Below are positions 19,777-51,102 of a stretch of 64,000 bases of DNA, piece by piece. A model generated the notes under the pieces. The model did no database searches, was not told where the DNA came from, and worked only from the letters and a program-made list of their open reading frames with translations. Numbering within the stretch: position 1 is the first letter of the stretch; each line of letters starts with the position of its first letter. The position numbers and the translations under genes are program-made. The DNA comes from Microbacterium hydrocarbonoxydans (GTDB lineage Bacteria; Actinomycetota; Actinomycetes; Actinomycetales; Microbacteriaceae), in the NCBI RefSeq assembly GCF_011752045.1, contig NZ_JAAKXW010000003.1, forward strand, positions 186,001-250,000, written 5' to 3'.

Positions 19777-19828
19777 CCGTAAGGATTCCGTCAGGACCGC
19801 AGCCGATGCCGTAGGGATGGCGTGAAGA
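19777..19828. promoter_or_regulatory. Composite direct-repeat element upstream of ktrB (K site A)
   Basis: Two 20-bp units, ccgtaaggattccgtcagga at 19777-19796 and ccgtagggatggcgtgaaga at 19809-19828, have starts 32 bp apart. Each unit holds two CCGT/GCGT half-sites 11 bp apart. Almost the same element is found before kimA and before the KdpD-like kinase gene. A TAAGGT -10 box (19856-19861) follows 27 bp later, without a good -35, as expected for an activated promoter. The rest of the 246-bp gap 19623-19868 holds nothing else I can name. Confidence 0.75.
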
Positions 19829-19868
19829 TGCCGAGCAGGCATGCCCCCTCGCGCGTAAGGTCGTCGGA

Positions 19869-21230
19869 GTGATCCTGGCCGAACGCATCCCCGCTCCTCG
19901 CCGTCCTCGGCATCTCGCCCCGGCGCAGACGATCGCGGCCGGCTTCGGCTCCGTGATACTCCTCGGCACCGTGCTGCTCATGCTGCCGGCATCATCGGCC
20001 GCGGGCCGCTGGACGGGTTTCGTGGAGGCTCTGTTCACGTCGACGTCCGCGGTCTGCGTGACCGGGCTGATCGTCGTCGACACACCCGTGTACTGGAGCC
20101 CCTTCGGCAAGATCGTCATCCTGCTGCTCATCCAGCTCGGCGGGCTGGGGATCATGCTGCTCGCCTCGCTCGTCGGGCTCGCGCTGGCTCGCCGCCTGTC
20201 GGTGCGATCGCGTATCGTCACCAGCGCGGAGACGAAGTCGCCCGGCACCGGCGACGTCCGTGGCGTCGCCGCCGGCATCCTGGTGACGACGCTGACGATC
20301 GAGGCCGTCGTCGCCCTCCTGCTGTTCGTCCGCTTCTTCGCGGGCTACGGCTATGACCCGGGTCGCGCGGCCTGGCACGCGATCTTCCACGCCGTCTCCT
20401 CGTTCAACAACGCCGGGTTCGCGCTCTACACCGACAGCCTGATGGGCTTCGTGGCGGACCCGTGGATCATGTTCCCGATCTGCGCCGCCATCATCCTCGG
20501 CGGCGTCGGCTTCCCGGTGCTCCGGCAGCTGCGTCGCGAGCTGCGGCGTCCGCTGCACTGGACGATGAACACCCGAGTGGTCCTCGTCACCACGGCGGCG
20601 CTGCTGGCTCTCGGGATGCTGGCGGTCACCGTCATCGAGTGGGGCAACCCGCGCACCCTCGGCGCCCTCGACCCGTGGTCCCGGCTGCTCGCCGGCTTCA
20701 CCTACTCGGTGCAGGCCCGTACGGCCGGCTTCAACTCGATCGACATCGCGCAGCTGCACGATGAGACCTGGCTCGTCACCGACGTGCTCATGTTCATCGG
20801 CGGCGGACCTGCGGGCACCGCGGGCGGCATCAAGGTGACCACGTTCGCCGTGCTGTTCTTCATCATGTGGACGGAACTGCGCGGCGGCACCGCGGTGAAC
20901 GTGTTCGGCAAGCGTCTCTCGCGCGCCGTGCACAGGGAGGCGATCACCGTCGTTCTCGTCGCGATCGGGGCGGTGATGGCCGGTGTCATCGCGATCCTGG
21001 CGCTGACCGATCTCGACCTTGACAAGGTGCTGTTCGAGGCGGTGTCGGCCTTCGGCACGGTGGGCCTGTCGACGGGCATCACCGCCGCGCTCCCTCCTGC
21101 CGCCCAGCTCATCCTCGTGCTGCTGATGTTCCTGGGCCGACTCGGCCCGCTGACCCTCGGTTCAGCGCTCGCCCTCCGTGAGCGCCGGATCGCCTACGAG
21201 CTGCCCAAGGAGCGACCGGCGATCGGCTGA
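19869..21230 (+). CDS. ktrB: KtrB/TrkH-type potassium channel subunit
   Basis: The membrane pore of a Ktr-type potassium (possibly sodium-coupled) uptake system. The 453-aa protein has the four-fold membrane-pore-membrane layout, with selectivity-loop sequences TSTSAVCVTGLIV, SSFNNAGFALY, ARTAGFNSIDI and AFGTVGLSTGI carrying the conserved glycines. GTG 19869 is taken as the start; TAAGGT ends 7 nt upstream and there is no clear ribosome site, so translation is probably leaderless. ktrA follows after 30 nt. The composite repeat upstream suggests control by the KdpDE-like pair at 48.9-51.1 kb. Confidence 0.92.
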   Translation: MILAERIPAPRRPRHLAPAQTIAAGFGSVILLGTVLLMLPASSAAGRWTGFVEALFTSTSAVCVTGLIVVDTPVYWSPFGKIVILLLIQLGGLGIMLLASLVGLALARRLSVRSRIVTSAETKSPGTGDVRGVAAGILVTTLTIEAVVALLLFVRFFAGYGYDPGRAAWHAIFHAVSSFNNAGFALYTDSLMGFVADPWIMFPICAAIILGGVGFPVLRQLRRELRRPLHWTMNTRVVLVTTAALLALGMLAVTVIEWGNPRTLGALDPWSRLLAGFTYSVQARTAGFNSIDIAQLHDETWLVTDVLMFIGGGPAGTAGGIKVTTFAVLFFIMWTELRGGTAVNVFGKRLSRAVHREAITVVLVAIGAVMAGVIAILALTDLDLDKVLFEAVSAFGTVGLSTGITAALPPAAQLILVLLMFLGRLGPLTLGSALALRERRIAYELPKERPAIG

Positions 21231-21260
21231 TCGCGGACGCTCGTGCAGAAAGGACCCTCC

Positions 21261-21956
21261 TTGCGAAACTTCCTCTCCTTCGGCCACGACGCCCGCCGCA
21301 TCGCGGAGGCCGACTCCGTCGCAGTGATCGGACTCGGCCGGTTCGGCACCTCGCTCGCTCTGGAACTCATGGCGTCGGGCACCGAGGTGCTCGGCATCGA
21401 TGGCGACGAGGACGTCGTGCAGTCCCTCAACGGGGAGCTCACCCAGGTCGTGCGCGCCGACTCGACGAAGCTCGAGGTGCTCCGCCAGCTCGCCGTGGAC
21501 GAGTTCGACCGCGTCGTCGTCGCGATCGGCAGCGACATCACCGCCTCCATCCTCACCGCCTCGCTGCTGCTGCAGCTCGAGGTGCCGGTCATCTGGGCGA
21601 AGGCCCTCGACGAGCGACACGGTGCCGTGCTGGAGCAGCTCGGGGTGCACCGTGTGATCTACCCGGAGAAGGACATGGGCCGCCGGGTCGCGCATCTCGT
21701 GCGCGGTGCCGCGGCTGACTACCTCGAGATCGACAAGGGATTCGCCGTCGTGAAGACGATCGCCCCGCGTGCTCTGCACGGCGTCACTCTGGCCGAGGCC
21801 GGGGTGCGGGCCGAGCACGGCATCACGGTCGCAGCGCACCGCTCGGAGGCGGGCTCGTGGGCGAACGCGGCCCCTGAGACGGTGCTGCAGGCCGGTGACA
21901 CGGTGCTCATCGTCGGGCCCATCGAGAAGGTCGAGCGCTTCGCGCAGCTCCGGTGA
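21261..21956 (+). CDS. ktrA: KtrA/TrkA-type cytoplasmic gating subunit
   Basis: The regulatory RCK subunit that binds nucleotide and opens KtrB. The 231-aa protein has the Rossmann loop VIGLGRFGTSLA near residues 20-31, the acidic end of the second strand (VLGIDGDEDVV) and a C-terminal RCK_C domain (GVTLAEAGVRAEHGITVAA; LQAGDTVLIVGP). TTG 21261 is preferred because AGAAAGGA lies 6 nt upstream; GTG 21243 would place that site inside the gene. It forms a two-gene operon with ktrB. Confidence 0.9.
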   Translation: MRNFLSFGHDARRIAEADSVAVIGLGRFGTSLALELMASGTEVLGIDGDEDVVQSLNGELTQVVRADSTKLEVLRQLAVDEFDRVVVAIGSDITASILTASLLLQLEVPVIWAKALDERHGAVLEQLGVHRVIYPEKDMGRRVAHLVRGAAADYLEIDKGFAVVKTIAPRALHGVTLAEAGVRAEHGITVAAHRSEAGSWANAAPETVLQAGDTVLIVGPIEKVERFAQLR

Positions 21957-29129: not shown

Positions 29130-29182
29130 CCGTAAGGATTCCGTGAGGAGGCCGCAGGGCGTCCGTAGGGATTCCGTGAGGA
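29130..29182. promoter_or_regulatory. Composite direct-repeat element between VanZ-RDD and kimA (K site B)
   Basis: The clearest copy: ccgtaaggattccgtgagga at 29130-29149 and ccgtagggattccgtgagga at 29163-29182, unit starts 33 bp apart, each with two CCGT half-sites 11 bp apart. TAGCGT (29209-29214) follows 26 bp later for kimA, and TAGGAT for the divergent gene is at 29116-29121 (complement), so bound protein could act on both promoters. Confidence 0.8.
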
Positions 29183-29222
29183 CGGCATGAGCGGCCCGCC
29201 CGGCGGAGTAGCGTCGCCCGAC

Positions 29223-31325
29223 GTGCCGAACGTAACCCGGGAGACCCCGGACGCCCCTCAGATCGCCAAGCGGATCCTCATCGGAGACCCGCTCACCAGC
29301 GAGCAGGCCGACCACCAGCTGCTCCCGAAGAAGATGGCGCTGCCGATCTTCGCCTCGGACGCGCTGAGCTCGGTGGCCTATGCCCCGCAGGAGCTGGTCA
29401 TGATCCTCCTCATCGGAGGGCTCACCTTCCTGTCCTTCACGCCGATCGTGGCCGTGGCGGTCGTGGTGCTGCTGACGGTGGTGGTGCTCAGCTACCGCCA
29501 GCTCATCAAGGCGTATCCGTCCGGCGGCGGCGACTACGAGGTGGCCTTCAAGAACCTCGGCGAGATCCCCGGTGTGGTCGTCGCGTCCGCCCTGCTCGTC
29601 GACTACGTGCTCACCGTCGCCGTGTCAGTGGCCTCCGGCGTGGACAACATCATCTCCGCCGTACCGGCGCTCGATCCGCTGCGCGTCGAGCTCGCCGTCG
29701 GCTTCGTCATCCTCATCATCATCGTGAACCTCCGCGGAGTGCGCGAGGCCTCCCTCGTCTTCGCCATCCCGACCTACGTGTTCATCGGCTCCGTCGGCTT
29801 CATGATCGCGACCGGCCTGGTGCGGACGATGCTCGGCGACGCACCGGTCGCGTCCAGCGCCGAGTTCGCCGTGCATGCCGAGAGCCTCAGCCAGGCGGCG
29901 GTCATCCTGCTCATCCTGCGCGCCTTCTCGAGCGGATGCTCCGCTCTCACGGGTGTGGAGGCCGTGTCGAACGGCGTCCCCGCCTTCCGCTCGCCGAAGG
30001 TGCGCAACGCGCAGACCACCCTGGTGCTCATGGGCACCATCGCGATCTGCCTGTTCTCGGGCCTCACCGCGCTCGCCCTGATCAGCGGGGTGCACTACGC
30101 CGAGAACCCGTGCGACCTCGTCGGCTTCGACTGCACGAACCCGCAGCCGAGCCTGATGGCCCAGATCGCGGCGGCGACGTTCGGCGGCGGGAGCATCCTG
30201 TTCTTCATCGTGCAGGCCGCGACGGCCTGCGTGCTGCTGCTCGCCGCCAACACGGCGTTCAACGGGTTCCCGCTGCTCGGCTCGGTGCTCGCCCGCGACG
30301 GCTACGCGCCGAAGGCGCTGAACACGCGCGGCGACCGGCTCGTCTTCTCGAACGGCATGATCATCCTCGGCATCGTCGCGATCGGCGTCCTCGTGGTGTT
30401 CCGGGCGCAGCTGACGACCCTCATCCAGCTGTACATCATCGGCGTGTTCGTCTCGTTCTCGCTCGGCCAGATCGGCATGGTCCGGCACTGGCGGCGGGTC
30501 CTCCGCGAGCAGGCGGGCAAGGGCGATCCCGCGGCGGCATCCGATCGCCGCTCGGCGCGAGCCGGCCTGGTGATCAACTCGCTGGGCGCCACGTTCACCG
30601 TGCTGGTCCTGCTGATCGTGACGATCACGAAGTTCACGCACGGCGCCTACCTCGTATTCTTCGCGATCCCCGTCCTCGCGTTCCTGATGATGGGCGTGAA
30701 GCGGTACTACCGCGACGTCGAGCACGAGATCGCGATCGACGACACCACGCACTTCGGCGCGACCGGCGACGTCGCCCTCGTCCTCGTGAACAAGCTGCAG
30801 AAGCCGGTCGTGAAGGCGGTCGACTACGCGATCGCCGCCAAGCACGGCAAGACGATGGCGATCCACGTGGCCGTGTCGGCTGAGGAGGCCGCGCAGCTGC
30901 AGAAGGAGTGGGAGGACCATCTGATGCCGATCCCGCTCATCATCGTGGAGTCGCCCTATCGCTCGTTCGCGCAGCCCGTCGCGGAGTTCATCGAGAAGTA
31001 CCGGAAGAAGCACGGCTCCTCGGTCGTGACCGTGTACCTGCCGCAGTACATCGTCGGCCACTGGTGGGAGACCTTCCTGCACAACCGCCGCGCCCGCCGC
31101 ATGGCGAGCCAGCTGATGCTCGTGCACGGCGTCTCGATCACGCTGGTGCCGTGGCTCCTCGACTCCTCCGAGCTGATCTACGGCCGCCGGTCGCGTCCGG
31201 TGCCCGGTCAGGAGCGCGCCGGACGGCCGGTGGTCGTGAACGGACGCAGGGCGCACCGGCCCGAAGGACCGCCGGCCGAGGATCGCACGGCCCGGAAGGG
31301 CGCGGGCGAGAGCGCCGGGGTCTGA
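29223..31325 (+). CDS. kimA: KimA-type potassium importer (APC superfamily)
   Basis: A proton-coupled high-affinity potassium importer of the KimA (YdaO) type. The 700-aa protein has a short cytoplasmic start (RILIGDPLTSEQADHQLL), then FASDALSSVAYAPQE, LSYRQLIKAYPSGGGDYEV, LLVDYVLTVAVSVASG and LRAFSSGCSALTGVEAVSNG, a pattern I recall from Bacillus subtilis KimA, with about 12 membrane spans and a C-terminal cytoplasmic domain of about 190 aa. GTG 29223 is chosen because TAGCGT ends 8 nt upstream, matching ktrB; ATG 29187 in the same frame would overlap the promoter. The shared upstream element and the presence of ktrAB support a potassium role; a general amino acid permease is the alternative. 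Confidence 0.83.
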   Translation: MPNVTRETPDAPQIAKRILIGDPLTSEQADHQLLPKKMALPIFASDALSSVAYAPQELVMILLIGGLTFLSFTPIVAVAVVVLLTVVVLSYRQLIKAYPSGGGDYEVAFKNLGEIPGVVVASALLVDYVLTVAVSVASGVDNIISAVPALDPLRVELAVGFVILIIIVNLRGVREASLVFAIPTYVFIGSVGFMIATGLVRTMLGDAPVASSAEFAVHAESLSQAAVILLILRAFSSGCSALTGVEAVSNGVPAFRSPKVRNAQTTLVLMGTIAICLFSGLTALALISGVHYAENPCDLVGFDCTNPQPSLMAQIAAATFGGGSILFFIVQAATACVLLLAANTAFNGFPLLGSVLARDGYAPKALNTRGDRLVFSNGMIILGIVAIGVLVVFRAQLTTLIQLYIIGVFVSFSLGQIGMVRHWRRVLREQAGKGDPAAASDRRSARAGLVINSLGATFTVLVLLIVTITKFTHGAYLVFFAIPVLAFLMMGVKRYYRDVEHEIAIDDTTHFGATGDVALVLVNKLQKPVVKAVDYAIAAKHGKTMAIHVAVSAEEAAQLQKEWEDHLMPIPLIIVESPYRSFAQPVAEFIEKYRKKHGSSVVTVYLPQYIVGHWWETFLHNRRARRMASQLMLVHGVSITLVPWLLDSSELIYGRRSRPVPGQERAGRPVVVNGRRAHRPEGPPAEDRTARKGAGESAGV

Positions 31326-45767: not shown

Positions 45768-47174
45768 TCAGCCCTCGGCGAGCACGGACCCGAGGATGCC
45801 GGCGGCCTCGGCGAACCGCGCCGGGTCGGCGCTCGCGTAGTTGAGGCGCACATAGGGGCCCGCGGGCTCGGCCGGGAACCATTCGGCACCCGGGGCGAGG
45901 ATGACGCCGCGCAGCTCGCATTCGCGGACCACGTGAGAAACCTCGGCCCCCTCGGGAAGGCGCAGCCACACGTTGAGCCCGCCGGCCGGGACGGTCTCGA
46001 CGACGCACTCGGGCGCCTGCGCGGCGAGGGCCGAGAGCAGGAGGTCGCGCCGCGCGCGCAGCTGCTCGCGGAAGCCGCGCAGGTGCGTGCGCCAGCCCGG
46101 CTGCGTGACGACGTCGAGGGCCGCCGCCTGCAGCAGGCCGCTGACGTACATCGACTCCGCCGCGCGGTCGGCGAGGATGCGCTCCCTGGCCGGTCCCCGC
46201 GCGATCACCGCCGCGACCCGCAGCGCCGGCGACACGCTCTTGGTGAGCGACCGCAGGTAGACGACGTGACCGTCGTCGTCGAGAGCGGCGATCGGGCGCG
46301 GCTCCGCGTCGATGGCGAGGTCGTGCGCCCAGTCGTCCTCGATGAGGAAGGCGCCGTGCCGGCGCACGGTGTCGAGCACGGCTCGGGATGTCTCCGCGGC
46401 CCACTGCGCACCCGTCGGGTTCGCGAAGGTCGGCTGCGCGTAGAACGCACGAGCGCCGGTCTGCGCGAACGCGCGCTCGACATCGTCGGGGTCCGGTCCC
46501 TGAGGACCCGTGGGGATCGGAACGAGCACGACGCCGGCCTGCTCCGCAGCGAGCAGCGCACCCCAGTAGGTCGGCGACTCGATCAGCAGAGGCTGCCCTG
46601 GCCCGACGACGGCGCGGAAGATCGAGCTCAGCCCGCTCTGGCTTCCCGAGATGATGAGCGCGTCGCGCCCCGTCGCCGGGGTGACACCGGCGGGCGCGGC
46701 CTCGGCCAGCTCGCCGGCGAACCAGGCCTGCAGCGCGGGAAGACCTGCAGCCGGCGACCTGGTCAGCGCGATCTCGGTGCGGGCGGCGCGGGCGAGCGCC
46801 TGGCGGACGAGCCGCTCCGGAAGCAGGTCCACGGCCGGATAGCCGGAGTGCAGGCCGATCACGTCCGGAGCCGCCGTCCGCTGCGTCGAGGAGAGCGCGG
46901 CGGTGCGGTTCGGCGGGGCGCCGAGGGCGGCCGTCTGCCAGCCGTAGTCGACGGGGCGGGCCGTGCGCGCGGCGCGGACGAAGGTGCCGACGCCGGGGCG
47001 GGACTCCACGAGCCCGAGCGCCGCGAGCTGCCGCATCGCCTTCTGCACGGTGACAGGGCTTGCGCCGTACTCCGCCGTCAGGGCCCGGTTCGACGGGACC
47101 TGCGCCCCCGGCGGCGCCGCCGCGATCCATGCGCGGAGTCCGGTGAGGATCCGCTCGGTGCTATCCTGACTCAT
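45768..47174 (-). CDS. MocR/PdxR-type regulator (GntR DNA-binding plus aminotransferase fold)
   Basis: A transcription regulator with an N-terminal GntR winged helix (residues about 5-68: PSNRALTAEYGASPVTVQKAMRQL, GLVESRPGVGTFV) fused to a class I aminotransferase-like domain that binds PLP. The PLP lysine is Lys312 in SLTKSVSPALR, with FANPTGAQW and EDDWAHDL at the expected places. Length 468 aa is normal. ATG 47174 overlaps head to head with the EamA start; TACTCT on the minus strand lies 8 nt upstream. It probably controls the divergent EamA exporter. Confidence 0.9.
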   Translation of the reverse strand: MSQDSTERILTGLRAWIAAAPPGAQVPSNRALTAEYGASPVTVQKAMRQLAALGLVESRPGVGTFVRAARTARPVDYGWQTAALGAPPNRTAALSSTQRTAAPDVIGLHSGYPAVDLLPERLVRQALARAARTEIALTRSPAAGLPALQAWFAGELAEAAPAGVTPATGRDALIISGSQSGLSSIFRAVVGPGQPLLIESPTYWGALLAAEQAGVVLVPIPTGPQGPDPDDVERAFAQTGARAFYAQPTFANPTGAQWAAETSRAVLDTVRRHGAFLIEDDWAHDLAIDAEPRPIAALDDDGHVVYLRSLTKSVSPALRVAAVIARGPARERILADRAAESMYVSGLLQAAALDVVTQPGWRTHLRGFREQLRARRDLLLSALAAQAPECVVETVPAGGLNVWLRLPEGAEVSHVVRECELRGVILAPGAEWFPAEPAGPYVRLNYASADPARFAEAAGILGSVLAEG

Positions 47175-48168
47175 GAAAGAACAGAGTAGCGTTATCCACC
47201 CGAAAGCGTCAGCGCTATCGACACGCGCCGGCCTCTGCTGGGGTCTTCTCGGCGTCGCCGCCTTCTCGTTCACGCTCCCTTTCACCCGCATCGCCGTCGC
47301 CGGCCTGTCTCCTCTGTTCATCGGAGCCGGGCGCGCGGTCGTCGCCGCCGTTCTCGCTGCCATCGCGCTCACGGCGACCAGACAGCATCTCCCGACGCCG
47401 GGCCAGTGGGCGCGGCTGGCGATCGTCGCCGGCGGCGTCGTCGCGGGGTTCCCGCTGCTGACCTCTTTCGCGATGACGACCGCTCCGGCCAGCCACGGCG
47501 CCGTGGTCGTCGGCATCCTGCCCGCAGCGACGGCAGCCATGGTCGTGCTGCGCACCCGCGAGCGCCCCCGCCCCGCCTTCTGGGCGTTCGCCGCACTCGG
47601 CGCGGCCGCCGCCGTCGGCTTCGCCTCGCTGCAGAACGGAGGACTGGGCGAGCTCCGATGGGCCGACCTGCTGCTGTTCGGCGCCGTGCTCGCCGCGGCG
47701 ACCGGCTACGCCGAGGGAGGCCTGCTCGCCCGCGAGCTCGGCGCCTGGCAGACCGTCTCCTGGGCCCTCGTTCTCGCGGCGCCCCTGATGGCGTCGCTGA
47801 CCGTGTTCGCGGCGATCGCGCAGCCCCCTGCCGGGACCCCGGTCGAATGGCTCGCCTTCGCGTATCTCGCCGCGGTGAGCATGTTCCTCGGCTTCTTCGC
47901 CTGGTACCGCGGCCTCGCGATCGGCCCGATGGCGCAGGTCAGCCAGGTGCAGCTGGTGCAGCCGGTGATGGGCCTCGCCTGGGCCGCCCTCCTCCTGCAC
48001 GAGCCGCTCGGCTGGCCGACGGTGCTCGGCGGGGTCGCTGTCATCGCCTGTGCCGCCCTCGCCGTCCGCACCCGCCTGAGCCCCGCCCGCAGCCGCCTGA
48101 ACCCCGTCCGCCTGAACTCGGCGCACTCCCGCCTGAACCCCGCCCCGATCACCCCTGAGGAGTCCTGA
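47173..48168 (+). CDS. EamA-family (DMT) metabolite exporter
   Basis: A ten-span drug/metabolite transporter-type protein of 331 aa with two EamA repeats (GLLGVAAFSFTLPFTRIAVAGLSPLFIGAGR; LLLFGAVLAAATGYAEGGLL; MAQVSQVQLVQPVMGLAWAALLLHEPLG). The last roughly 35 residues hold a repeated SRLNP element outside the membrane domain. ATG 47173 lies 5 nt after TATCCT (47162-47167), so it is probably leaderless. It is divergent from the MocR regulator, and the next gene starts inside its stop codon. Confidence 0.88.
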   Translation: MKEQSSVIHPKASALSTRAGLCWGLLGVAAFSFTLPFTRIAVAGLSPLFIGAGRAVVAAVLAAIALTATRQHLPTPGQWARLAIVAGGVVAGFPLLTSFAMTTAPASHGAVVVGILPAATAAMVVLRTRERPRPAFWAFAALGAAAAVGFASLQNGGLGELRWADLLLFGAVLAAATGYAEGGLLARELGAWQTVSWALVLAAPLMASLTVFAAIAQPPAGTPVEWLAFAYLAAVSMFLGFFAWYRGLAIGPMAQVSQVQLVQPVMGLAWAALLLHEPLGWPTVLGGVAVIACAALAVRTRLSPARSRLNPVRLNSAHSRLNPAPITPEES

Positions 48169-48767
48169 TGCGTCACACGCCCCGCTACCTGATGACCGAC
48201 CCCGAGGACGTCAAGCGCCTCGTCCGGAGGAACCCCTGGGCGACGTTCGTCTCCCCTGCCCGGGGCGGCCTCGTCGCCTCGCACTATCCGGCGCTGCTCG
48301 AGGAGGACGCGGACGGCATCGTGATCGTGAGCCACTTCGGGCGCCCCGATGAGGAGCTGCACGAGCTCGGCGCGCACGAGATCCTGGTGATCATCCAGGG
48401 CCCGCACGACTACGTCTCGCCGAGCCTGTACGCTCCCGGCGACCTGGTGCCGACGTGGAACCACGTGACAGCGCACCTCTACGGCACGCCGGAGATCCTC
48501 GGAGAGGAGGAGAACTACGCCATGCTCTCCCGCCTCACGGATCACTTCGAGCAGCACCGCCCCGGCGGACGCAGCCTCGCCGAGGACGAGGCGGGCACCC
48601 GTCGCGCCGCCAAGGGCACCGTCGGCCTGCGGATGCGCGTCGTCCGCTTCGACGCCCGCGCCAAGCTCAGCCAGAACAAGCCCGCCGAGGTGCGGGAGGA
48701 CATCGCCCGCTCCTTCGAGCGGACCAATCCGCTGCTCGCCGCGGAGATGCGGCGGATCGACGGCTGA
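48168..48767 (+). CDS. PaiB-like FMN-binding protein
   Basis: A 199-aa protein of the PaiB family (annotated in Bacillus as a negative transcriptional regulator; the fold binds FMN). It shows MRHTPRYLMTDPEDVKRLVRRNPWA, FVSPARGGLVASHYPALL, VIIQGPHDYVSPSLY and TWNHVTAHLYG, then RLTDHFE and KLSQNKPAEVREDI. The start ATG overlaps the EamA stop by one base (TGATG), so the two are coupled. The actual role, detoxifying enzyme or regulator, is uncertain. Confidence 0.87.
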   Translation: MRHTPRYLMTDPEDVKRLVRRNPWATFVSPARGGLVASHYPALLEEDADGIVIVSHFGRPDEELHELGAHEILVIIQGPHDYVSPSLYAPGDLVPTWNHVTAHLYGTPEILGEEENYAMLSRLTDHFEQHRPGGRSLAEDEAGTRRAAKGTVGLRMRVVRFDARAKLSQNKPAEVREDIARSFERTNPLLAAEMRRIDG

Positions 48768-48799: not shown

Positions 48800-48851
48800 C
48801 CGTGAGCATCCCGTATGCGTCGGCACCCGGACCGTATGGATCCCGTGAGGA
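48800..48851. promoter_or_regulatory. Composite direct-repeat element upstream of the KdpD-like gene (K site C)
   Basis: ccgtgagcatcccgtatgcg (48800-48819) and ccgtatggatcccgtgagga (48832-48851) have unit starts 32 bp apart and half-sites 11 bp apart, matching the elements before ktrB and kimA. The right unit is better conserved. A TTGAAT at 48878-48883 stands at the same distance as the -10 boxes of the other two, while a second candidate -10, TAGGAT, is at 48937-48942. This suggests autoregulation. Confidence 0.72.
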
Positions 48852-48949
48852 TCGCCGACCGTGGCGCCGCATCCGGATTGAATCGAGCGGTGCCCGTCGC
48901 CGACGGCGCGCACGCACGTGCCGGGAGACGGCGGAATAGGATTCGGAGA

Positions 48950-50434
48950 ATGAGCGCAGATCGGATGCCGAGGCGCGGCCGTGCCGGCGCCCTGCCGGCC
49001 GGTGCAGTGCTGCTGCCCCGCATCGCGGGAGGCGCACTCGGCTGGCGGCGCCAGCTGGCCGGCTTCACCGTCGCGCTCGTCTGCGGTCCCCTGCTCACCT
49101 GGCTGCTGCTGACGCTGCGCCGTCCGGAGTCGATCACGGCCGAGGTGCTCTCTTATCAGCTCCTCGTCGTCATCGTCGCGCTGATCGGCGGGCTGTACCC
49201 CGCGGTGTTCGCGGCGGTGCTCTCCGGCATCACCCTCGACTTCCTCTTCGTCGCCCCGCAGTTCACGATCACCGTCGAGCATCCTCTGCATCTGGTCGCC
49301 CTTCTGCTGTACGTCGTGATCGCCGTGCTGGTCAGCCTCATCGTCGACCAGGCCGCCCGCCGTGCCCGCGCAGCGAACCGCGCCGCGGAGGACGCGGAGC
49401 TGCTCGCCGCCGTCGCAGGCAGCGTCCTGCGCGGCGAGAACGCCGCGCAGGCCCTGGTCAGCAGGACGCGTGAGGCGTTCGGCCTCGCCGGCGTGCGCCT
49501 GCTCGCCGCCGACGGCGAGGTGCTCGCCCGCGACGGAGAGCCGCTGGCCGACGGACGGATGACGACCGTGCCGGTCGGCGCTCCCGTCGACGGCAGCGCG
49601 CGCGCCGTGCTCGAGCTGCACGGGCATCCCCTCGACGCCCCGTCGCGCCGGCTGCTCGACGCGATCGTGGCGCAGCTGTCGGCCGCGATCGAGCACACCG
49701 ACCTGCGTGCGACCGCGAAGGAGGCGGAGGCGCTCGCCGAGACCGATCAGGTCCGCAGCGCGCTGCTGTCCGCGCTGAGCCACGATCTCCGGCGCCCCCT
49801 CGCCGCCGCGGTCGCCGCGATCGGCGGCCTCCGCGGGGCGCACGATCTCTCCGCCGCCGATCGCGAGGAGCTGCTCGCGACCGCCGACGAGAGCCTGAGC
49901 ACCCTCACCACGCTGGTGACCGATCTGCTCGACGTGAGCCGCGTGCAGGCGGGCGTGCTCGCGGTCTCGGCGGTGCCGATCGACGCTGCGGGCATCATCC
50001 TCGCGGCGATCGACGAGCTGGGGCTCGGCCCTGCCGACGTCGAGCTGCGCCTGGACGCGTTCCTGCCGCCGCTGCTCGCCGACCCCGTGCTGCTGCAGCG
50101 CGTCATCGTGAACGTGCTCGCCAACGCCCACCGGTTCTCCCCCGCGCAGACGCGGGTCGTCATCACGACCGCGCGGTCGGGCCCGATGGCGGAGATCCGC
50201 GTCATCGACCGGGGAGAGGGAGTGCCGGCGGAGCGCCGCGACGAGATCTTCCAGCCGTTCCAGCGGCTCGGCGACACCGACAACGCCACCGGGCTGGGCC
50301 TGGGCCTGGCCCTGTCCCGCGGCTTCGCCGAGGGCATGGGCGGCACGCTCACCCCCGAGGACACGAGGGGCGGCGGCCTGACGATGGTGATCGCGATGCC
50401 CCTCGCCGCCGACGACCGGAAGGACACGGAGTGA
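48950..50434 (+). CDS. KdpD-like sensor histidine kinase lacking the KdpD/Usp sensor domain
   Basis: The sensor of a two-component pair. The 494-aa protein has a DUF4118-type four-span membrane domain (VALVCGPLLTWLLLTL to LVSLIVDQAARRA, about 35-145), a GAF-like middle (about 150-250), the phospho-acceptor region LLSALSHDLRRPLAAAVAAI with His278, the N-box NVLANAHRFSP and the ATP lid GEGVPAERRDEIFQPFQRLG. Classical KdpD has about 390 further N-terminal residues (KdpD and Usp domains), absent here. ATG 48950 is preceded by TAGGAT 7 nt upstream; GTG 48890 in frame is possible but the added codons have poor GC3. It overlaps the regulator gene by 4 nt. No kdpFABC is nearby. Confidence 0.87.
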   Translation: MSADRMPRRGRAGALPAGAVLLPRIAGGALGWRRQLAGFTVALVCGPLLTWLLLTLRRPESITAEVLSYQLLVVIVALIGGLYPAVFAAVLSGITLDFLFVAPQFTITVEHPLHLVALLLYVVIAVLVSLIVDQAARRARAANRAAEDAELLAAVAGSVLRGENAAQALVSRTREAFGLAGVRLLAADGEVLARDGEPLADGRMTTVPVGAPVDGSARAVLELHGHPLDAPSRRLLDAIVAQLSAAIEHTDLRATAKEAEALAETDQVRSALLSALSHDLRRPLAAAVAAIGGLRGAHDLSAADREELLATADESLSTLTTLVTDLLDVSRVQAGVLAVSAVPIDAAGIILAAIDELGLGPADVELRLDAFLPPLLADPVLLQRVIVNVLANAHRFSPAQTRVVITTARSGPMAEIRVIDRGEGVPAERRDEIFQPFQRLGDTDNATGLGLGLALSRGFAEGMGGTLTPEDTRGGGLTMVIAMPLAADDRKDTE

Positions 50435-51102
50435 AGCTCCTCATCGCCGACGACGACCCGCAGATGGTGCGGGCTCTGCGCATCACCCTCTCCGCACACG
50501 GCTACGAGGTCGTCGCCGCCGCCGACGGTGCGGCCGCCGTCGCCCTCGCCGCGCAGACGCACCCGGACATCATCATGCTCGACCTGGGGATGCCGCACCT
50601 CGACGGCCTCGAGGTGATCCAGGCGCTGCGCGGCTGGACGACCGTGCCGATCATCGTCGTCTCCGGCCGCACCGACTCCGCGGACAAGGTGGACGCACTG
50701 GATGCCGGCGCCGACGACTTCGTCACCAAGCCGTTCCAGGTCGACGAGCTGCTCGCGCGCCTGCGCGCGCTCTCCCGTCGCAGCGTGACCGCGGGCGGGG
50801 AGTCCACCGTGGCCTTCGGCGACGTCGTCGTCGATCTCGCCACGAAGACGGTCACCCGGGCGGGCTCGCGCGTGCACCTCACACCGACGGAATGGAGGAT
50901 GCTGGAGCATCTGTCCCGGCATCCGGGAGCCCTCGTCACCCGTCAGGACCTGCTGAAGGAGATCTGGGGCAGTGAGCAGGTCGCGGACTCCGGCTACCTG
51001 CGCCTGTACATGTCGCAGCTGCGGAAGAAGCTGGAGACGGAGCCCAGCGCGCCCGCGCATCTGCTCACCGAGTCGGGGATGGGCTACCGGCTCGTGCCCT
51101 GA
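50431..51102 (+). CDS. KdpE-like OmpR-family response regulator
   Basis: The DNA-binding partner of the preceding kinase. The 223-aa protein has a receiver domain (acidic ADDD near residue 7, phospho-acceptor Asp51 in IIMLDLGMP, VVSGR and Lys in VTKPF) and a C-terminal OmpR winged helix (HLTPTEWRMLEHLSRHPGALVTRQDLLKEIWG; LRLYMSQLRKKLE). HLTPTEW and EIWG follow the KdpE pattern. It starts GTG 50431 inside the kinase stop (GTGA). OmpR-type regulators bind direct repeats about 10-11 bp apart, like those in the three composite elements, so it is the prime candidate to bind them. Confidence 0.9.
   Translation: MKLLIADDDPQMVRALRITLSAHGYEVVAAADGAAAVALAAQTHPDIIMLDLGMPHLDGLEVIQALRGWTTVPIIVVSGRTDSADKVDALDAGADDFVTKPFQVDELLARLRALSRRSVTAGGESTVAFGDVVVDLATKTVTRAGSRVHLTPTEWRMLEHLSRHPGALVTRQDLLKEIWGSEQVADSGYLRLYMSQLRKKLETEPSAPAHLLTESGMGYRLVP

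Follow-up and report, generated by a model that had tools for sequence, protein, structure and literature searches.

A shortened KdpD and predicted KdpE-type boxes at K+ uptake genes of Microbacterium

What remains of a KdpD sensor kinase when its front part and the Kdp pump are both gone, and which genes might such a kinase still serve? The question is raised by a kinase and an OmpR-type response regulator encoded in a 64,000-nucleotide stretch of Microbacterium hydrocarbonoxydans DNA, referred to here as the window. An earlier note, which placed the genes exactly, described the kinase as a shortened KdpD without adjacent pump genes and left its link to potassium open. Features of the window are collected in Table 1.

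Table 1. Genes, predicted boxes and -10-like elements in the window
Feature	Position	Strand	Remarks
ktrB/trkH-type K+ transporter	19869..21230	+	PF02386
ktrA/trkA-type regulatory subunit	21243..21956	+	PF02254, PF02080
KdpE-type box before ktrB	19777..19797	+	26.7 bits
KdpE-type box before ktrB	19809..19829	+	24.7 bits
-10-like TAAGGT before ktrB	19856-19861
kimA, K+ transporter gene	29187..31325	+	probable start GTG 29223
KdpE-type box before kimA	29130..29150	+	25.6 bits
KdpE-type box before kimA	29163..29183	+	32.3 bits
-10-like TAGCGT before kimA	29209-29214
GntR/aminotransferase, EamA, FMN_bind_2 genes	45768..48767	-, +, +	mark the deletion site
Possible weak partner box	48800..48820	+	32 bp upstream of the kinase box; 0.9 bits by matrix, two CCGT repeats by eye
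KdpE-type box before kinase	48832..48852	+	30.8 bits
-10-like TTGAAT before kinase	48878..48883	+
Short KdpD kinase gene	48950..50434	+	494 aa; KdpD residues 1-11, linker, 4 predicted membrane helices (DUF4118), GAF-like region, HisKA, HATPase_c
KdpE response regulator gene	50431..51102	+	223 aa; 4-base overlap with the end of the kinase gene

Descent of the kinase and loss of the pump

Pfam placed DUF4118 at residues 41–144 of the short kinase, HisKA at 269–335 and HATPase_c at 378–486, in agreement with the early entry into the membrane domain described before. PF02702 (the KdpD domain) was found neither in this protein nor anywhere in the 3.65-Mb, 9-contig genome, which bears out the lack of a KdpD/Usp sensor domain and makes the kinase a truncated KdpD descendant, not a complete KdpD. 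By the same result, a detached sensor domain, for which the genome was also searched, was not found. Residues 165–257 form an alpha/beta region in the structure model (pLDDT 72.6, pTM 0.40); Pfam GAF had no match in any of the 41 kinases scanned, and in a structure search the kinase core dominated the matches. The best NCBIfam match of the kinase was the KdpD equivalog PRK10490, with a score of 159.9 bits where the cut-off is 1123, a shortfall to be expected with the front of the chain missing. For the regulator, the best matches were KdpE models and structures, namely PRK10529 in NCBIfam (230 bits, under the cut-off of 325) and 4kny in the PDB (1.6e-59), and it is 93% identical to KdpE of G120, a congener with full-length KdpD.

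Among the matches listed from 247 genomes of the genus, the closest kinase was that of G289 (84% identity), which is also short. Next came full-length KdpDs with frames of ~820–880 residues, matched over their C-terminal parts at 76–80% identity; further down these matches identity drops to ~60%. A phylogeny against KdpD placed the kinase inside the KdpD group, as sister to G289 (SH-aLRT 99) and nested among full-length KdpDs of the genus. Identity and tree position rule out an unrelated DUF4118 kinase and indicate that the short kinase is a descendant of KdpD. Its start, MSADRMPRRGR, aligns with MTAERMPRRGR, the N-terminal sequence of full-length KdpD in G120, and from residue 18 onward it corresponds to the linker that precedes the first membrane helix. 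About 354 residues are missing in frame between the retained first 11 residues and this linker, comprising the front two-fifths of KdpD (the serine-kinase and Usp domains). The absence of the N-terminal sensor region noted earlier therefore holds, and the size then given, ~390 aa, does not. The N-terminal sequence is common to the window kinase and G289, and the deletion is therefore probably older than the divergence of the two.

Neither KdpA (PF03814) nor Kup had a match anywhere in the genome, which encodes KimA and two TrkH-type transporters. The window KimA is 78% identical to an ortholog in G185 that matches the potassium transporter KimA of entry 6s3k (2.1e-116). Elsewhere in the genus, for example in G120 and G266, the GntR/aminotransferase, EamA and FMN_bind_2 genes precede kdpFABC; the order in G120 is kimA, GntR/aminotransferase, EamA, FMN_bind, GNAT, two genes, kdpA, kdpB, kdpC, kdpD and kdpE. 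The short kinase of the window directly follows the GntR, EamA and FMN_bind genes, and ~0.24 kb in the window takes the place of ~8.9 kb in G120. From this conserved flanking order we conclude that kdpFABC, already seen not to adjoin the kinase, is absent from the assembly because it was lost in place.

Boxes of the KdpE type before K+ uptake genes

The DNA before the short kinase is similar to stretches upstream of kdpA and of kimA in relatives. A 21-bp matrix was trained on 27 kdpA-upstream regions only, and its consensus, CCGTATGGATACCGTGAGGAC, consists of two 11-bp direct repeats. The five best matches in the window (two before ktrB, two before kimA and one before the kinase) scored 24.7–32.3 bits and the sixth 13.4 bits, and when the window was resampled 30 times under a first-order Markov model, the maxima averaged 11.4 bits and did not exceed 21.7. 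A kdpA box of at least 20 bits was present in 26 of the 27 loci, which are the training set itself. When 86 partly overlapping loci (1.08 Mb), chosen around K+ genes, were scanned, 81 of 84 matches of at least 20 bits lay no more than 760 bp ahead of kimA, kdpA, the kinase or ktrB, and two of the three leftover matches fell in the kimA promoter on the opposite strand. The third (L238 position 485, in G255, 20.2 bits) was upstream of no recognised K+ gene. No box at 20 bits was found for 12 control gene classes or for the second TrkH.

The position of the boxes was regular. Among 29 kimA promoters, a TANNNT motif starts 25 bp downstream of the box in 15 and at 36 bp, a further helical turn away, in 10; for ktrB, the motif follows at 25–26 bp in all six promoters with a box of at least 18 bits. 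This spacing would put the box near -58 to -38, a usual place for activators. The promoter of the short kinase has ATTGAATCGAG where kdpA promoters carry GTTGNATCG, at equal distance from the box, and the old kdp promoter thus probably now drives the short kinase. As a separate observation, the -10-like element lies only 7–8 bp before the GTG start of kimA (29209–29223) and ktrB (19856–19869), as also seen in relatives, a gap that suggests leaderless transcripts of these two genes.

The box also resembles a known KdpE site. The minimal M. smegmatis site, CCGTAAAGAAACCATCAAGGCC, reported from footprint and EMSA in the accessible text of PMC5401905, aligns with it, and both the register and the two-repeat layout match. 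By our matrix this site scores 8.4 bits, which was reached by 1 of 20,000 shuffles and by 7 in 100,000 positions of fetched DNA. E. coli KdpE, as far as described in the available part of PMC3264566, likewise uses two direct repeats, spaced at a period of 11 bp (6 bp + 5 bp), but their sequence is T-rich. With KdpE-type boxes predicted upstream of kimA, of ktrBA and of the kinase gene, the potassium link that had been left open gains support.

Short kinases and boxes across the genus

DUF4118 was above the cut-off in 63 genomes of a family sample of 120, and the window genome was the only one of the 63 without PF02702. Within the genus (247 genomes), among the matches listed, DUF4118 was found in 186 genomes and KdpA in 159, and 30 genomes had DUF4118 without KdpA. 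Again among the matches listed, a shortened KdpD was present in 20 of these 30: the kinase was without any N-terminal part in 14, kept the Usp part alone in four, and had lost the GAF-like region too in two. The others had full-length KdpD (G223, G317 and G240), an 812-residue frame read from the table alone (G249, a 72% complete genome), a different DUF4118 kinase (four genomes) or weak matches alone (two genomes). In G335 (L240) and G174 (L241), KdpD is cut to the membrane and kinase domains (~370 aa) and lies directly after kimA. The different kinase (L242–L245 in G150, G155, G286 and G363) has ~350–370 aa, no GAF-like region and its own response regulator, and in G155, G286 and G363 it adjoins a membrane protein of ~600–630 aa that looks permease-like by eye; it is possibly part of another K+-type system. 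Two candidates for shortened kinases, in G354 and G320, were rejected as frameshifted full-length KdpDs and counted as full, and the "Usp-only" kinases of G097 were dropped, since they lie at contig ends. A scan of 18 loci from named genomes included three from Microbacterium and one from a Microbacteriaceae MAG.

All 22 fetched stretches with a shortened kinase were without adjacent kdpABC, a comparison drawn among the matches listed, in which a short kinase with an intact pump next to it may have gone unnoticed; one of the stretches (L161, in G331) has only ~1.2 kb of sequence between the kinase and the upstream contig end. Full-length KdpD with kdpABC missing or reduced was found at five loci (G223, G317, G240 and the second loci of G303 and G234), so domain loss does not follow at once. 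Together these counts fit an order in which the pump is lost first and the domain second. G303 (L254) and G234 (L255) carry a complete kdp locus and a second one where kdpAB is lost and a kdpC remnant lies beside full KdpD; these remnants are deletion intermediates. In G186 and G308, a short kdpDE pair and a complete kdp locus occur in the same genome. The tree comprised 106 fetched rows (22 shortened and 84 full) out of the 186 genomes with DUF4118; kdpA was taken as present for most full rows and not checked row by row, and the more distant kinases of G150, G155, G286 and G363 as well as the Microbacteriaceae MAG L180 were left out. On this tree, loss of the N-terminus takes at least five changes; as drawn and with no regain, seven lineages are counted, some of them at weakly supported forks.

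The boxes were also followed through these relatives. Twenty pump-less genomes have both KdpD and kimA; leaving out the upstream DNA of G240 and G249 and the second kimA of G273, and counting each locus once, all 18 examined had a kimA box. The same was true of all four genomes that carry a pump-less locus in addition to one with the pump, and of 7 of 15 with a pump only, which suggests that the control of kimA is older than pump loss. For G317 and G320, kimA was counted with a score just below 20 bits on the gene strand and 26.8 and 28.9 bits on the other. When shared ancestry was allowed for, the association between pump loss and the kimA box was not significant, there being too few independent pairs for this correction (4 pairs; 1.5 the same way, 0 opposite). 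A ktrB box of at least 20 bits was present in 5 of 16 cases, with 19.4 bits in G278; none was found in the sister genome G289 (0.3 bits), nor in G140, G121 and G234. The controls were four kimA and three ktrB genes from genomes classed by absence of KdpD alone, not of KdpE; none of the four kimA, of which one is a fragment containing a stop, and none of the three ktrB had a box.

An own box of at least 20 bits preceded 8 of the 16 kinases without any N-terminal part, and G325 had 18.8 bits. The test covered 400 bp before the membrane part, which falls inside the gene where Usp or the full N-terminus is kept and is thus invalid there; in G135 and G212, box-like stretches lie ~490 bp upstream, beyond this range. 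Seven of the 16 had no own box, and six of these directly follow kimA, the seventh (G129) following kimA, sufS and sufU. G298 and G186 have the order kimA, short kdpD, kdpE, ktrB and ktrA. In G319, a short kinase is present and neither kimA nor a ktrB of the window type was found.

A proposed K+ regulator without its pump

We think it likely that KdpDE outlasted its pump because it activates KimA and KtrBA in response to K+, and that it has discarded the domain responsible for phosphorylating KdpB. After the in-place deletion of kdpFABC and ~354 N-terminal KdpD residues, which would have left the kdp promoter before the shortened kinase, we infer that the remaining KdpD domains report K+ to KdpE: at low K+, KdpE would be phosphorylated by short KdpD and, bound as KdpE~P to the paired 11-bp direct repeats, would switch on ktrBA, kimA and kdpDE. 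According to the accessible part of PMC11018627, the N-terminal domain of E. coli KdpD is a serine kinase that phosphorylates and inactivates KdpB, and K+-sensing sites have been suggested in its TM/GAF part. The N-terminal part may therefore have become dispensable, its known enzymatic job having no substrate after pump loss.

The signal itself could be another one. The rewired system might respond through its membrane domain to osmolarity, turgor or envelope state and still drive the K+ uptake genes; osmotic adjustment is a further role of KimA and KtrBA. The kinase has lost its N-terminal input, and E. coli KdpD without its N-terminus, in the available text of PMC2714519, responds to K+ limitation and lacks repression at high K+; the N-terminus also helps hold KdpE on DNA there, and short KdpD might thus signal differently. 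In contrast, membrane-domain dN/dS, in pairs chosen by hand from the tree, was 0.12–0.21 in 8 short-type pairs and 0.03–0.19 in 11 full pairs; for the membrane domain and the regulator, the mean was slightly higher in short-type than in full pairs, which points to mild relaxation at most. Together with the TM/GAF sites suggested for E. coli, this makes a non-K+ cue unlikely in our view.

It is less likely still, and indeed improbable, that a different regulator of the OmpR family uses the boxes and that short KdpDE controls something else. The assignment of the box comes from co-occurrence and similarity, and only seven control genes came from KdpD-less genomes, but the box precedes kdpA throughout nearly the whole training set, is absent before kimA and ktrB of the KdpD-less congeners examined, and resembles the M. 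smegmatis KdpE site. The short kinase did arise by deletion, its pump is gone, and the 58 of 247 genus genomes with neither DUF4118 nor KdpA show that the whole system can be lost, but a decaying, functionless kdpDE remnant is very hard to reconcile with a dN/dS of 0.16 against G289, with values of 0.11–0.27 in 8 short-type pairs versus 0.10–0.24 in 11 full pairs, with a phospho-acceptor His and residues of what we take to be the N and G boxes that are invariant across 41 kinases, with a regulator kept in 20 of 20 loci compared, and with boxes at three promoters. By these ratios the short kinase is under continued purifying selection.

Returning to KdpDE as an activator that survived its pump, the system is like classical KdpD/KdpE of E. 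coli and M. smegmatis in its membrane domain, histidine kinase, KdpE partner and direct-repeat site with an 11-bp period, the box sequence being M. smegmatis-like; it differs in lacking both the KdpD (serine kinase) domain and the Usp domain, in that kdpFABC was not found, and in its predicted targets, kimA, ktrBA and kdpDE. Split KdpD, a separate KdpD/Usp protein plus a TM/GAF/DHp-CA kinase, has the same domain order in its kinase half, whereas the window genome has no PF02702 protein; the survey in question, in the text accessible to us, is confined to species in which a Kdp pump is annotated (PMC11018627). In laboratory deletions of E. coli KdpD, a similar piece was removed in frame (PMC2714519, as far as available), whereas the truncation described here is natural, common to two species and accompanied by pump loss. 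The window KimA belongs to the same transporter family as that of Bacillus subtilis, which is inactivated by c-di-AMP according to the available part of PMC10117811, and differs in that a KdpE-type box precedes its gene. In the literature searched, as far as its text was accessible, no description was found of KdpE controlling kimA or ktr, or of KdpD shortening coupled to pump loss.

A wider proposal, to which we give somewhat better than even chances, is that the genus has repeatedly split the two enzymes of KdpD, the serine kinase being lost only where kdpABC is gone (in the loci examined) and the histidine kinase persisting to activate a KimA–KtrBA regulon in response to K+. Loss would be stepwise (pump, KdpD domain, Usp and, in two genomes, the GAF-like region), and the membrane and kinase domains alone would then suffice for K+ signalling.

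The role of the large N-terminal half of KdpD and the site of K+ sensing are long-standing questions. Natural truncations, none of them next to kdpABC in the 22 loci examined, point to the N-terminus as a pump accessory, and short KdpDs are ready-made minimal sensors for testing membrane or GAF-like sensing. Our analysis also proposes a specific sequence as the candidate KdpE box of Microbacterium, and it suggests how a regulator dedicated to one transporter can persist after the loss of that transporter, having others under its control already.
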